A stretch of DNA of 21,675 nucleotides from a virus. Shown here piece by piece: positions 309 to 14,810 of this stretch. The DNA is taken from positions 1 through 21,675 of the IMG/VR virus record IMGVR_UViG_3300005882_000215; one strand, 5' to 3'. Positions within the stretch are counted from its first letter, which is position 1. Every line of letters begins with the position of its first letter. The notes under the pieces are model-generated. The model was not told where the DNA came from, did not search any database, and saw only the letters and a program-made list of their open reading frames with translations. A program made the position numbers and the translations under genes.

Positions 309-581
309 TTATTTGGTTTGGAAGACTTGGTCTTTTATGTTAACTACGGAGGAGTGGATAATGTTGAGTTTTAGGGATATGGTGAATTTAGTGTATGTTT
401 CGATTCCTTTTAGAGTTAGGAATGATTCTAGTTCTTTGTTTATTTTAATTGCGTATGCTATCTGTGGGTTTTTTGATTCGATAAGGTAGACTAGTTCGTG
501 TACAGAAAGAATTCCGTCTTTGTATTTGTTTACAATGTCTACTACGCTTGTGAATGATGTTGCTAGTATAAATTTATTCAT
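309..581 (-). CDS. array paralog 5 (unknown family, most diverged)
   Basis: I do not recognise this 90-residue protein. It is the last member of the five-gene minus-strand array and keeps the family signature in diverged form: a beta-like stretch, then a segment reading ESFLTLKGIETY, which matches AFFKLKGIKTY in the neighbour and ASFLKMKNS in the other three. The start is coupled to the upstream gene by an ATGA overlap at 578-581, with an AAGGA ribosome site 6 nt before it. No signal peptide, membrane segment or metal-binding motif is visible. The C-terminal part is unlike its relatives. Family membership is read directly; function is unknown. Confidence 0.75.
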   Translation of the reverse strand: MNKFILATSFTSVVDIVNKYKDGILSVHELVYLIESKNPQIAYAIKINKELESFLTLKGIETYTKFTISLKLNIIHSSVVNIKDQVFQTK

Positions 582-922
582 TGCTTATCCTTGTGGGTTT
601 TGGTGAATTCTCTTTTTGAACTGCTGCTATTTGTAAACTCTTCTAATACTGATAAAGTTGTTACTGAGTCATGTTTGTTGTGTGAATTATTGATTATTGA
701 CTCGATTTCGTTGTGGTTGTATGTTTTAATGCCTTTTAGTTTGAAGAAGGCTACTAAAGTTTCGTCCATTTCTATTATGTATCGTTTGCCGCTGGCTCGG
801 TAGAAAAATGTTGTTTTTGTTAAAATGTGTAATAAACGGATGTCGGTTATGTGTTCGTGATGTTTGTTGTATATTTCACTAACTTCATTGCGGTTGTCGC
901 TAATTATATAATAATTGCTCAT
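578..922 (-). CDS. array paralog 4 (unknown family)
   Basis: A 114-residue unknown protein. The N terminus (MSNYYIISDNR) resembles the MKQYYIVVPE and MQYVIVPDKQ starts of its neighbours, and residues 50-78 carry the shared core AFFKLKGIKTY followed by an acidic EIESII helix. A Ser/Thr/Lys-rich tail of about 35 residues after the core is unique to this copy and looks disordered. It is the longest member. A 54-nt gap separates it from paralog 3 upstream, the only break in the array. The ribosome site is weak (GGG about 10 nt upstream). A TTGACA hexamer lies in the gap, but no well-spaced -10 follows. Confidence 0.72.
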   Translation of the reverse strand: MSNYYIISDNRNEVSEIYNKHHEHITDIRLLHILTKTTFFYRASGKRYIIEMDETLVAFFKLKGIKTYNHNEIESIINNSHNKHDSVTTLSVLEEFTNSSSSKREFTKTHKDKQ

Positions 923-976
923 TTTAAAAATACCCGTACGAAAAATTTGTCAACACTGTTTAACAATTGAATTTGC

Positions 977-1216
977 TTATTTGCCAAATCTTTTTTTTAA
1001 CTCGTTCATATTCATTGGTTTGACAAAACTATCTTTCATTTTTAAAAATGAAGCTGCTTCGTCGGTGATAGTGATAACGACTAGGCCGGTGGCGGCTTTT
1101 TTGTGTTCGTCACTAAACTCGTCGACGATGTCATAATCAATATTAATTACTTGCTTATCTGGAATTTCAGCTAAGTATTGATTTAAATGGTATACTGTGG
1201 TTACAACGTATTTCAT
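977..1216 (-). CDS. array paralog 3 (unknown family)
   Basis: A 79-residue unknown protein with the clearest form of the family: an N-terminal beta-like MKYVVTTVYHLNQYL, an acidic middle, then ITDEAASFLKMKDS and a Glu/Lys helix (NELKKRF). The core is nearly identical to that of paralogs 1 and 2. The start overlaps the stop of paralog 2 by ATGA (1213-1216), so translation is probably coupled; the ribosome site is weak. It is soluble, with no cysteine cluster or signal peptide. Relatedness is visible at DNA level, since a 36-bp block inside the gene recurs in the next two genes. Function is not known. Confidence 0.78.
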   Translation of the reverse strand: MKYVVTTVYHLNQYLAEIPDKQVINIDYDIVDEFSDEHKKAATGLVVITITDEAASFLKMKDSFVKPMNMNELKKRFGK

Positions 1217-1608
1217 AATTTCGGTCTTGGGTTTTTGATAATTTCGCCTTGTGCATCTAGTGTGTCTTTATCCACTACTTCGATGTCGCTATTCTTCATT
1301 TTTAAAAACGACGCTGCTTCGGCAGTAATAGTGATTATGCGCAAATCGATGCATTGTGTAAAACTTACATTGTTGTCGTCGACTGCTGCTTCAACAAATG
1401 GCAGATAACTTTTTAAACGATCGCCGTAACTAATTATATGCTGCCTTGGTATAATGTTCAAATAATGTTCTAGTCGGTGTTCAGGGACAACAATATAATA
1501 CTGTTTCATAATCTTTTTAATTCAAGAACTTTTCGCAATTCTTTGCAAGTTACTACTTTAACAAAACTGTTTTTCATTTTTAAAAACGAAGCTGCTTCGT
1601 CAGTAATA
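1035..1608. repeat. three copies of a 36-bp block inside paralogs 1-3
   Basis: Near-identical 36-bp blocks lie at 1035-1070, 1295-1330 and 1573-1608, beginning TTCATTTTTAAAAA on the plus strand. By eye the first and third share 33 of 36 bases, and the second and third 34 of 36. They encode the shared core EAASFLKMK in paralogs 3, 2 and 1. Conservation includes synonymous positions, pointing to recent duplication, gene conversion, or selection on the DNA or RNA itself. Confidence 0.85.
1213..1509 (-). CDS. array paralog 2 (unknown family)
   Basis: A 98-residue unknown protein. Its N terminus (MKQYYIVVPEHRLEHYL) aligns with paralog 1, and its C-terminal core ITAEAASFLKMKNS differs from paralog 1 by one residue over this stretch. 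The middle 40 residues are diverged and longer than in paralog 3. The start overlaps paralog 1's stop by ATGA (1506-1509), and its own stop overlaps paralog 3's start in the same way, giving three translationally linked genes. The fixed core with variable N-terminal and middle segments suggests duplication followed by diversification of a recognition part; that is inference. Confidence 0.78.
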   Translation of the reverse strand: MKQYYIVVPEHRLEHYLNIIPRQHIISYGDRLKSYLPFVEAAVDDNNVSFTQCIDLRIITITAEAASFLKMKNSDIEVVDKDTLDAQGEIIKNPRPKL

Positions 1609-1778
1609 ATAAGTATTGATACATCTTGTTTAATTACTTCAACATATTCGTTTCCGTTTTCGTCAATGCATATTTCGGGTGCTGGAAGAGATTCGTTCAA
1701 AATATCGACGATGTTCTCTTCTGAAATTTCTTCTATATACTTATCTAGTTGTTTGTCTGGTACAATAACGTATTGCAT
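1506..1778 (-). CDS. array paralog 1, first gene of the array (unknown family)
   Basis: A 90-residue unknown protein and the first gene of the minus-strand array. It starts MQYVIVPDKQLDKYI, has an acidic centre (many Glu/Asp at residues 18-48), and carries the family core at about residues 57-70 (ITDEAASFLKMKN), then VKVVTCKELRKVL. The ribosome site is weak (GAAG about 2-6 nt upstream). The 131-nt gap to the divergent plus-strand gene must hold its promoter, but I see no convincing -35/-10 pair on the minus strand. The negative charge and small size recall phage inhibitors and mimic proteins, but nothing in the sequence proves that. Confidence 0.78.
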   Translation of the reverse strand: MQYVIVPDKQLDKYIEEISEENIVDILNESLPAPEICIDENGNEYVEVIKQDVSILIITDEAASFLKMKNSFVKVVTCKELRKVLELKRL

Positions 1779-1909: not shown

Positions 1910-4615
1910 ATGGTAAAAGCTGATGTGTTTGTGCTAGGCAATAGTGAAAAATACAAAGAGTTGGACTTTGAATATACATTTAGAATTCCTGCCGAAAAGA
2001 TTACACTGCACACGTTTAATGTTATTAAGCGCATGTCTAAAAGTCCGTATTTTTATATTGTGAAAGAGAGTGCAAATACAAACATTGATTTTAGTCAAGA
2101 GGTGTACGAATATGAAAATGCGTTTGTATTTTGGAACGGTGATGATAGTGTTCGTTTATTTAATGCAGAAAAGGTATTTGAAAATCCAGCAGCATATACA
2201 GACGAAGAATGGTGGGCTGGCAATATAACAGACGTGTACAATATTATTGACGACAATGTTGCTGTTAATGATGCAGAACATGTTGGCGGAAACATAAAGA
2301 GTAAGTGCCAGGTTGTGTTATTAGGCAAGGGCTGGAACGACTGGAAGCAGAAATTAAGTTCAATACATTATCCGATATTGCATGTTGATTCAGATAGTTT
2401 AGACGAAGAAGGGATCGAATACATTTTATCAAACACTAACAAGCCTGTTATTTATATCGTGCGATGTGATGTTGATTGTAATGGGTTATTCCAGTTAGAT
2501 TATGTGCCACCACATTACGATGACAAATACATGCATGTGTGGAACAACAATCTGAATGTTGTTTGTATTGTGCGAAAACAACTAATGTCGCGACCAGAAT
2601 TATATACTGATGTTGCTATTGCTAATGGCAAAGCACCAGTGAAACATATGACAGACGACGATTTTGTTATACACGAAGAAAATACAGGTGCGGTAAGAAG
2701 TAAAGATAAGTGTATGTCTGTATTTTTGTATAATGGTTGGGCTGAGTGGTGTGATCGTTTAAGTTCAAAGTTTTGGCCGTTTGTACATATAAAATCAAAT
2801 TGTTTAGGTGAAGTTGAGATAGAAAAAATATTAGCTGCTGCGAACGACAACATTGAAACAATTTATATTGTTCGCAATGATGTTGAACTAGGAGAAGAGT
2901 TTGAACCGAGTTTTATTTTCCACAAGCATGACAGAAAGTATATGCATGTTTGGAACGATAATTGCAATTTAATTGCAATTTCTAAATCGGTACTAAAAAG
3001 TAATCCAAGTTTATATACAGACGATGCACTGAAGCTTAACAATACACCAATTAAAAATCATACTTCTACTAGTGTAAAGCATAATGCAGGTTCGTTTCTA
3101 GATGCTGGCGTATATAATGACGATGCATGTTGTGTTGTATTAATGTCTCCAACATGGGAAGACTGGTGCGAAGATTTATCAAAAGAAATACGAAAAACAA
3201 TTTATGTTAAATCTAACATGCTTTCCTTAGAACAAATACATAAAATTTTAGCATGTGTAGACGACGACACAGAAATGTTATACTTTGTTCGTGACAAAGT
3301 TGAAATGGTAGGCGAATTTCAATTAAATTGGGTTCCATCAATTTATGATTCTGAATATTTACACATTTGGAACGGTAATACAAATTTGTGTGGTGTTACT
3401 ACCCGCGCACTAAAACAAAACCCACAATTGTATACAGATGATTCGCTAAGAAACGAAACAGTAGATTTTAAATTAGTTAGTGATCCATCTGTAATTGTTT
3501 CTGGATCACTAACTAAAGATATGAATATGTTTGGTGTGTTTGATAAAAGTAAATGTTCGTATGTATTTCTAACAGAAGACTGGATGCCTTGGTGCGACAA
3601 GATGAGTAAGAAAGTGTGGCCAGTTTTGCATATTGATTCACACGAACTAGGTGAAAAAGAAATACAAGAAATACTAGCTGAAGTAAACACAGAATATGTT
3701 TACGTCTTTAGTGCAGATGTTGAAACAGATGGGTTTGAGTTTGATTATATTCCGCCTGTGCGAGATAACAGATACATTCACATTTGGAATAATAGTTTTG
3801 ACATGCGACTAATGTCTGTTGACGAACTAAGGAAAGACCCTAAATTGTTTACAGATGACTCAATTAAGAACGGTGCTGCCGACGTTAAAAATTATATTGC
3901 ACCATCGGTTGTAATTAAAAAAGAATTAGACATTGTGTTCTTGAGTTACAACGAGCCCAGCGCAGACGAGAATTATCAAAAGCTATTAAAGCGTTTTCCT
4001 AGAGCAAAGCGTGTACATGGCGTTGAAGGAATATTTAACGCACACAAGACCGCTGCGAAGCTAGCAAAGACCGATATGTTTTATGTTGTTGATGCTGACG
4101 CAATAATTTTAGATAGTTTTGACTTTAGTTATGTCCCTAGCATCTATGATAAAAATTGTGTTCATGTTTGGCGAAGTGTTAATCCGTGCAATAATTTACA
4201 ATACGGTTATGGTGGCGTTAAGTTGTTTCCTAGAAACAAATTAATTGAAGCAAAAACTTGGGGGACAGACTTTACAACATCATTGGGGACAGAATTTAAG
4301 CCTATGGGAGAAATAAGTAATATCACTGCATTTAATGTCGACGCATTTTCTGCATGGCGTTCAGGTTTTCGTGAAGCTGCAAAACTTGCAAGCAAAACTA
4401 TCGATAGGCAATTAGATGCCGAAACCGACGAACGATTAAATGTGTGGTGTACTGTTAAAACTGACGCACCGTTTAGTGAAGAATGCGTACATGGGGCATT
4501 ACAAGGAAAAGAATACGGGTTGAAACATAAAAACGACCTCGAAGCATTAAAGAAGATTAACGATTATAACTGGTTAAAGGAGCAATATGAGAACAGAACG
4601 TCTAGCATGGGGTGA
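1910..4615 (+). CDS. 901-residue multi-module glycosyltransferase-like protein
   Basis: A large soluble protein built of repeated modules. Copies run at about residues 3-103, 132-248, 267-376, 406-522 and 548-663, and a longer C-terminal domain at about 672-890. Each module has a beta strand (xYIVRxDV), then Pxx(Y/R)D, Y(M/L/I)H(V/I)WN and NPxLYTDD. The C-terminal domain carries FYVVDADAI (D728, D730), a DxD as in GT-A glycosyltransferases, then YVPSIYDKN and VHVW, so the modules look like degenerate copies of its core with the first Asp lost (RCD, RND, RDK, SAD, KES). The likely role is sugar transfer or sugar binding, with the upstream modules non-catalytic. It starts at ATG 1910 behind GGGAG. 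It heads the plus-strand cassette and overlaps the next gene by 29 nt. The substrate is unknown. Confidence 0.7.
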   Translation: MVKADVFVLGNSEKYKELDFEYTFRIPAEKITLHTFNVIKRMSKSPYFYIVKESANTNIDFSQEVYEYENAFVFWNGDDSVRLFNAEKVFENPAAYTDEEWWAGNITDVYNIIDDNVAVNDAEHVGGNIKSKCQVVLLGKGWNDWKQKLSSIHYPILHVDSDSLDEEGIEYILSNTNKPVIYIVRCDVDCNGLFQLDYVPPHYDDKYMHVWNNNLNVVCIVRKQLMSRPELYTDVAIANGKAPVKHMTDDDFVIHEENTGAVRSKDKCMSVFLYNGWAEWCDRLSSKFWPFVHIKSNCLGEVEIEKILAAANDNIETIYIVRNDVELGEEFEPSFIFHKHDRKYMHVWNDNCNLIAISKSVLKSNPSLYTDDALKLNNTPIKNHTSTSVKHNAGSFLDAGVYNDDACCVVLMSPTWEDWCEDLSKEIRKTIYVKSNMLSLEQIHKILACVDDDTEMLYFVRDKVEMVGEFQLNWVPSIYDSEYLHIWNGNTNLCGVTTRALKQNPQLYTDDSLRNETVDFKLVSDPSVIVSGSLTKDMNMFGVFDKSKCSYVFLTEDWMPWCDKMSKKVWPVLHIDSHELGEKEIQEILAEVNTEYVYVFSADVETDGFEFDYIPPVRDNRYIHIWNNSFDMRLMSVDELRKDPKLFTDDSIKNGAADVKNYIAPSVVIKKELDIVFLSYNEPSADENYQKLLKRFPRAKRVHGVEGIFNAHKTAAKLAKTDMFYVVDADAIILDSFDFSYVPSIYDKNCVHVWRSVNPCNNLQYGYGGVKLFPRNKLIEAKTWGTDFTTSLGTEFKPMGEISNITAFNVDAFSAWRSGFREAAKLASKTIDRQLDAETDERLNVWCTVKTDAPFSEECVHGALQGKEYGLKHKNDLEALKKINDYNWLKEQYENRTSSMG

Positions 4616-8398: not shown

Positions 8399-8653
8399 CT
8401 ATTGCAACATCAGCTTGTAATCTTTCTCGTCAAAAAAGAAGACAACGCATACAGATTTTTGTTGATTACACCAGTCAATATAAAAAACACCATTACATAC
8501 TTTGTTTAACTCTTCTTCTAAATCACTAATAACTTCTGTGGAGCTAAACACAACTTGATGATTCAAAAAGGTCAAATAGATAGAAGGCTCTTTTATGAGC
8601 GCGTCCCACTCATCACGGTTTAATCTTTTGTTTTTCTTTTTTCTAAATTCCAT
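8399..8653 (-). CDS. hypothetical protein, 84 residues
   Basis: Not recognised. The first dozen residues are strongly basic (MEFRKKKNKRLNR), then DEWDALIKEPSIYLTFL and a beta-rich C-terminal half (GVFYIDW, SVCVVFFFDEKDYKLML). It looks like a small alpha/beta fold with a basic arm that could touch nucleic acid. AGGAAA lies about 10 nt before the ATG. It follows the terminator of the VWA gene, so it probably starts a short unit with the HNH gene 63 nt downstream. No clear promoter is visible between the terminator and this start. Confidence 0.7.
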   Translation of the reverse strand: MEFRKKKNKRLNRDEWDALIKEPSIYLTFLNHQVVFSSTEVISDLEEELNKVCNGVFYIDWCNQQKSVCVVFFFDEKDYKLMLQ

Positions 8654-14477: not shown

Positions 14478-14810
14478 TTATAGCCCTTCAATCCACTTAT
14501 TTACATCTTGTATTAACGATAGTCCAACTGCATCTTCTTCTGTAAAAACTGCAAAAATTTTTGTGCCCATATAATACGGATATCTACATTTGCGGTATAA
14601 CTTAATTTTGTTCATGGGTGTAATTGTGTCACTGTCATATTTATAACTGCGAAAATATTTTTGAAGTGTGAGGAATCCTTTTCTTCTTAACCTCAGTGAT
14701 GGCCAATAATAAAATAATTGCTTCGTATCTTCTTTTGTTTTGAAACGCACGGGATCATATTTTGATAGAACTTCAGTGAGTTTCGTTAGTAGTTCTTCTT
14801 TTGTACTCAT
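14478..14810 (-). CDS. hypothetical protein, 110 residues
   Basis: Not recognised. The first half is helical and basic (KEELLTKLTEVLSKYDPVRF, WPSLRLRRKGFLTLQKYFRS) and the second mixes helices and strands (GTKIFAVFTEEDAVGLSL), ending VNKWIEGL. Frequent Tyr, Trp and Arg in the centre suggest a nucleic-acid- or protein-binding surface. It overlaps the upstream 107-residue gene by 38 nt, has a poor ribosome site, and is followed directly by dihydrofolate reductase, so translation is probably coupled. A similar small protein beside dihydrofolate reductase is plausible in related phages, but I cannot confirm it. Confidence 0.72.
   Translation of the reverse strand: MSTKEELLTKLTEVLSKYDPVRFKTKEDTKQLFYYWPSLRLRRKGFLTLQKYFRSYKYDSDTITPMNKIKLYRKCRYPYYMGTKIFAVFTEEDAVGLSLIQDVNKWIEGL

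Follow-up and report, generated by a model that had tools for sequence, protein, structure and literature searches.

What are the five small genes that stand head to tail at one end of this phage fragment? Are they copies of a single family, and if so, what could they do for the phage? The window, by which we mean the whole stretch of DNA analysed (21,675 nucleotides), is a 21.7-kb IMG/VR virus contig and a fragment of a jumbo-phage genome. A preliminary description, made from the letters of the sequence, had proposed five coupled paralogs of an unrecognised small-protein family, with a fixed core and a variable remainder, diversifying against host targets such as defence systems. The gene structure in that proposal is sound. 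All five consecutive minus-strand ORFs, 79–114 residues long, were found where they had been placed (Table 1), and the N-termini quoted for them are all present in the translations. The quoted cores are present too, except that g3 reads EAASFLKMKDS rather than ending in KNS; the 'acidic middle' attributed to all five fits g1–g3 better than g4 and g5. Three junctions are ATGA overlaps (g1/g2 at 1506–1509, g2/g3 at 1213–1216 and g4/g5 at 578–581), and g3 and g4 are separated by a gap of 54 nt. The minus-strand frames have codon scores of 0.05 to 0.38 bits per codon versus −0.09 to −0.22 for the antisense ORFs tested, which were dropped as candidate genes because of these negative values; large genes score 0.22–0.46, and the support for g5, the lowest of the five, is weak. 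An RNA element or tRNA at the locus was also considered and dropped, as was a palindrome resembling a terminator: it lies in the core-coding DNA, consists of the EAASF codons and is broken in g2.

Table 1. Features of the array and its surroundings. P values for the helix motif come from the 12-column matrix trained only on the relative G001 and from the 22-column extended matrix; within one group (g1–g3 or g4–g5) they are non-independent tests.
Feature	Positions	Strand	Evidence
g1, 90 aa, first gene of the array	1506–1778	-	ORF; paralog of g2 and g3; AlphaFold pLDDT 89.5
g2, 98 aa, ATGA overlap with g1	1213–1509	-	ORF; 42% identity to g1, E 3e-17
g3, 79 aa, ATGA overlap with g2	977–1216	-	ORF; 37% identity to g1, E 4e-15
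g4, 114 aa	578–922	-	ORF; paralog of g5, E 2e-7; AlphaFold model
g5, 90 aa, ATGA overlap with g4	309–581	-	ORF; lowest codon score among the five
g1 helix motif TDEAASFLKMKN	1569–1604	-	G001-only matrix P 0.004; extended P 0.001
g2 helix motif TAEAASFLKMKN	1291–1326	-	G001-only matrix P 0.0165; extended P 0.002
g3 helix motif TDEAASFLKMKD	1031–1066	-	G001-only matrix P 0.005; extended P 0.002
g4 helix motif DETLVAFFKLKG	731–766	-	G001-only matrix P 0.051; extended P 0.004
g5 helix motif NKELESFLTLKG	405–440	-	G001-only matrix P 0.0035; extended P 0.003
Intergenic region separating the array from the divergent 901-aa gene	1779–1909		Gene layout
Gene for a 901-aa protein	1910–4615	+	Several repeated units with recurring 'YxHxWN' segments

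Whether the five are one family is less simple. BLAST connects g1, g2 and g3 with one another (E 1e-9 for g2–g3; other values in Table 1) and, separately, g4 with g5. Since it finds no significant match between these two sets, and profile–profile comparison yields P 0.018 at the core only, the grouping by sequence is three plus two. Paralogy as originally claimed therefore holds within each group; its extension to all five is suggested by the predicted topology of g1 and g4, by a helix motif at the same place and by the array organisation. The family does deserve to be called unrecognised: the five have no match in Pfam, in PHROGs or by direct search. The tested members from the window, from its relatives G001 and L016, from Sinorhizobium phage Phosso and from the AMLFKLTW-type family discussed below gave chance-level matches only in Pfam, PHROGs and NCBIfam. 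A tblastn search of named phages with g3, pattern scans of IMG/VR with the two window alignments, and a search of 23 phage records with alignment A1 all returned nothing. The same 23 records searched with alignment A2 gave one stretch within a 4193-aa open frame (E 0.005), which we judged to be a chance match.

Structure models were made for one protein per sequence group, g1 and g4. AlphaFold, supplied with an alignment of eight divergent sequences, folded g1 into a strand (residues 2–7), a helix (8–18), two strands (23–38 and 44–58) and two helices (60–69 and 78–86). The g4 model has the same order of elements, β-α-β-β-α(-α), with pLDDT values of 84–93 in most of the core and 67–78 around the β2–β3 hairpin, followed by a low-confidence C-terminal tail. 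A shared fold, on which the preliminary description had staked the family, is thus upheld as predicted topology for the two of the five proteins that the models cover. In this predicted fold the 'core' is formed by the turn that follows strand three and by the next helix, so its conservation may be partly structural rather than functional.

Among named phages, the group of Pseudomonas jumbo phage PA5oct in the Arenbergviridae is closest to the tested window genes (HNH protein 57%, MoxR-type ATPase 54%, 5′-3′ exonuclease 48%, VWA protein 47%, QueE-like protein 36%), and gene order is conserved in part; judged by these proteins, the window phage is a distant relative of Arenbergviridae. The nearest relative found is G001, a 328-kb IMG/VR contig (ATPase 69%, VWA 63%), followed by contig L008 and then by G002 (210 kb). 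The array lies at the left end of the window and is transcribed leftward, pointing away from the 901-aa gene. Promoters for both would be expected in the divergent region between them; a promoter scan produced a single weak promoter-like match (1838–1809, minus strand), with the number of matches at or below chance. Downstream of g5, positions 1–308 contain no convincing gene, and their minus strand is C-rich and G-poor (plus-strand GC skew +0.53), resembling a Rho-utilisation type region that might terminate the array transcript. The 901-aa protein has no Pfam match, and its C-terminal part looked glycosyltransferase-like by eye ('VVDADA'). The number of its repeat units seems to vary among phages, because its homologs (L168 10841–12631, L013 15977–17044 and L008 13690–14826) have 596, 355 and 378 aa, respectively.

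In G001 the matching operon is a long series of genes for proteins of 60–110 aa, many of them overlapping by a few bases and all carrying motifs of the type FDNEQDAMLFKLHY or FRNEEALRFKLEY. We built a 12-column matrix on 21 of the G001 motifs, leaving out all window sequences, and obtained P values against shuffles. Its best match in each of g1–g5 is exactly the 'core' of the preliminary description. Of the 29 window proteins with fewer than 210 aa, g1–g5 take ranks 1–5 with an extended matrix of 22 columns, trained on 89 members from outside the window. HMMER with the motif alone was not significant and did not set g1–g5 apart from the window's other small proteins. The motif consensus is [S/T/D/N]-x-E-x-[A/L]-x-x-[F/L]-[K/R]-[L/M]-x-[Y/F/K]. 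Elsewhere in the window, lone small proteins at 8399–8653 and 14478–14810, both on the minus strand, have motif-like strand–helix segments (VCVVFFFDEKDYKLMLQ and IFAVFTEEDAVGLSLIQ) with weak extended-matrix P values of 0.05 and 0.12; judged by these segments, they are possible single family members outside the array.

The matrix finds the motif in 58 of the 299 small ORFs of G001 versus 3.05 in shuffles, an enrichment that is partly circular, because 21 of these motifs trained the matrix. About 34 of the motif genes form one block of ~13 kb that spans the contig ends; the two ends have 23 bases in common. In G002, a shorter run of about seven motif genes is found at the same kind of place. In both relatives, as in the window, the operon is divergent from the homolog of the 901-aa gene. 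The window genes thus resemble the G001 and G002 arrays in having the motif after the third strand, in being tandem overlapping small genes and in belonging to a divergent operon; full-length sequence similarity to those array genes was not detected. We regard it as very probable that the window genes and these arrays share descent. The pattern of a fixed core and a variable remainder repeated head to tail is borne out, and the comparison of copy number between related phages that had been proposed as a check reveals the same pattern with many more copies. In another relative, L016, the matrix led to ten genes that form an independent array and whose products end in EDLxAFxLKYGHIYG; an IMG/VR scan yielded only L016 itself and one weak locus. 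The motif is not enriched in PA5oct with the G001 matrix, nor in SCTP-2 or the first 50 kb of T4 and of KVP40. Small paralogs of other kinds also occur in these phages. Three related proteins near the G001 array (L168 14494–14976, 15968–16468 and 16490–16954; 'VYNAKGDLGLNGTVFANDV...TQTPESI') make up another small set, and PA5oct gp130 and gp129 (L004 33673–34109) are adjacent overlapping paralogs (25% identity, E 6e-9) of another sequence type, close to a strand switch.

Larger jumbo phages carry what may be the same theme on a grander scale. In Sinorhizobium phage Phosso, the G001 matrix finds 17 genes versus 0.4 expected. A DNA pattern for the octapeptide AMLFKLTW occurs in 58 IMG/VR stretches, many of them within the same few contigs of 417–465 kb; 57 called ORFs, most of 66–134 aa, contain the octapeptide, always with 1–12 residues after it, and at least 16 such genes lie close together in locus L282. 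A profile of 25 AMLFKLTW-type members (A8), with matches counted at E up to 1 per genome, gave 100, 88, 81, 76 and 56 matches in five phages of 417–469 kb, high counts being expected in source genomes because some of their members built the profile. There were at most 17 in others (G001 4, PA5oct 3, G002 2) and none in four control jumbo phages (SCTP-2, 121Q, G and Atu_ph07). Neither PHROG nor NCBIfam models match any of the 25 members, ten proteins of Phosso and L016 gave chance-level Pfam matches only, and the phage collection contains no DNA-level relative of Phosso. Among solved structures, the A8 profile found nothing; RanBP2 matches at E about 0.5 were judged to be chance.

Like the window proteins, the AMLFKLTW-type proteins (annotated as hypothetical in Phosso) are small, often tandem and variable in the body, with a predicted strand followed by the helix motif, here [DE]xxAxLFKLxW. 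Unlike the window genes, they reach tens to ~100 copies, and their motif is far more constant and stands mostly at the very C-terminus. At an E threshold of 10, the A8 profile matches nothing in the window, and hhalign of the window groups against A8 and A9 was negative; for this reason we do not file the window genes as AMLFKLTW members. A8 and A9 themselves match at P 0.003, at the motif only. With the profiles negative, the link between the window and the larger family is drawn from the motif, the predicted fold, the operon position and the array organisation, and on balance these make shared descent probable, if clearly less so than with the G001 and G002 arrays.

In a rival reading, the fixed helix would be a docking or addressing element that a single phage factor (perhaps a protein of the virion, a scaffold or an adaptor) recognises, and the variable bodies would be different cargoes or effectors using one route. 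The last dozen residues of the AMLFKLTW-type proteins, far more constant than the rest and mostly at the very C-terminus, with K76 and L77 invariant in the 25 sequences, are what such a role would leave. In the window, however, predicted structure continues beyond the motif, which is also less constant (the [K/R] of [F/L]-[K/R]-[L/M] is K in four of the five proteins and T in g5). Moreover, a core helix can be conserved for structural reasons, and no candidate partner was seen. We consider this reading rather unlikely. Somewhat less likely still is that g1–g3 and g4–g5 are two unrelated families that only look alike, or have no kinship with other phages' arrays. The sequence and profile searches, which at a significant level matched neither one group with the other nor either group with the profiles of relatives, would allow it, but the order of elements is the same in the models, the motif occupies the same structural place, and G001 and G002 have the same array and operon setting.

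The PDB neighbours of the models bring in a further possibility, namely that the proteins are P_II/CutA1-like oligomers binding a nucleotide or second messenger, perhaps as sponges against signalling defence. P_II/GlnK and CutA1, both trimeric regulators, are the best neighbours of the g1 model, alongside the Trm5 N-domain in a mostly ferredoxin-like list (best Z 5.6), and they resemble it in general element order. Neighbours of g4 are UreE, papillomavirus E2, CutA1 and ribosomal proteins (best Z 4.9), with PstA and CutA1 (Z about 4.1) among the lower ones. However, Foldseek E-values are 0.01 or worse and all Z scores are under 8, too low to tell relatives from common arrangements; sequence similarity to P_II/GlnK and CutA1 is absent, and no ligand-binding residues are common to the five. 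Scores of this kind, obtained with predicted models, fit any common ferredoxin-like arrangement and do not indicate function, and ligand binding of this type seems to us quite improbable.

How fast such proteins change could be gauged from one gene. Between L008 and G002, a lone family member is ~55% identical, whereas conserved core genes here are 80–88% identical; its dN is 0.36 versus 0.06–0.13 for core genes, and its dN/dS is ~0.1, an approximate value with synonymous sites saturated. This is fast change under constraint. The idea of a diversifying family is supported insofar as the lone member outpaces core genes; on the other hand, an unrelated small neighbour is equally fast (dN 0.43), and there is no sign of positive selection. 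That the duplicates have little specific function, filling genome length in a large capsid, an argument made for jumbo phages in general, and persisting for a while as they drift, accords with copy numbers that differ greatly among phages and with tandem duplication as a proposed route of jumbo-phage genome growth (PMC5646251), but intact frames, the kept motif and the dN/dS of the one pair compared argue for selection, and we find this reading quite improbable as well.

What we tentatively favour, ahead of these readings, is that the array, part of a jumbo-phage accessory operon, repeats one small single-domain scaffold of ferredoxin-like topology (strand, helix, strand, strand, helix) in a short tandem run. 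In each phage lineage such an array would expand and contract through tandem duplication; the motif-bearing strand-to-helix element would stay fixed, while the remainder would diverge until copies lose similarity. The copies would probably be made jointly from one coupled transcript. During takeover or counter-defence, each would bind and adjust a host protein of its own, or a distinct form of the same protein, with duplication and divergence providing new specificities. Host-interaction genes usually look like this, with one scaffold present in an accessory operon as many small, coupled copies that diverge fast, and it is because of this look that binding of different host targets by different copies is our first choice. 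The original suggestion of host targets such as defence systems found nothing to anchor it: nothing links these genes to defence or to a target, and Pfam and PHROGs give no match. Bolder, and in our judgement possible but doubtful, is the idea that the array is a small, divergent outpost of a superfamily with a fixed helix 'handle' and a nearly freely varying body, forming a standing host-binding repertoire of up to ~100 copies per jumbo phage and, by a rough estimate, 5–7% of the genome.

Tandem arrays as such have precedents. Phages G and 121Q have arrays in which more than 30 similar genes follow one another (Hua et al. 2017, PMC5646251), a point restated in a 2026 jumbo-phage review (PMC13282480), and phage G has about 35 copies of a zinc ribbon (PMC7824862). 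These arrays are like the present ones in being lineage-specific runs of similar genes attributed to tandem duplication. They are unlike them in that the families described here have no profile match in G or 121Q, the paired CxxC of the zinc ribbons is missing from all five window proteins, and the 121Q paralog groups have other sequences and form separate short runs. In 121Q (KM507819.1, about 60–180 kb) we observed six small proteins with an EELFQYSLVY-type motif versus 0.7 expected, which from their sequence may be convergent or distantly related. A paper on a Sinorhizobium giant phage reports hundreds of unique ORFs, and a term search of its text gave no mention of paralogs (PMC11242549). 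The literature searched, with most subscription journals and preprints outside its scope, contained no description of this family.

Unexplained small ORFs make up a large share of jumbo-phage genomes. If dozens to a hundred copies of one scaffold per genome do exist, much of this dark matter would be reduced to one testable family. The motif makes it possible to search for its members where ordinary homology search fails, and the expansions in several lineages would represent a natural experiment in making many proteins from one fold.
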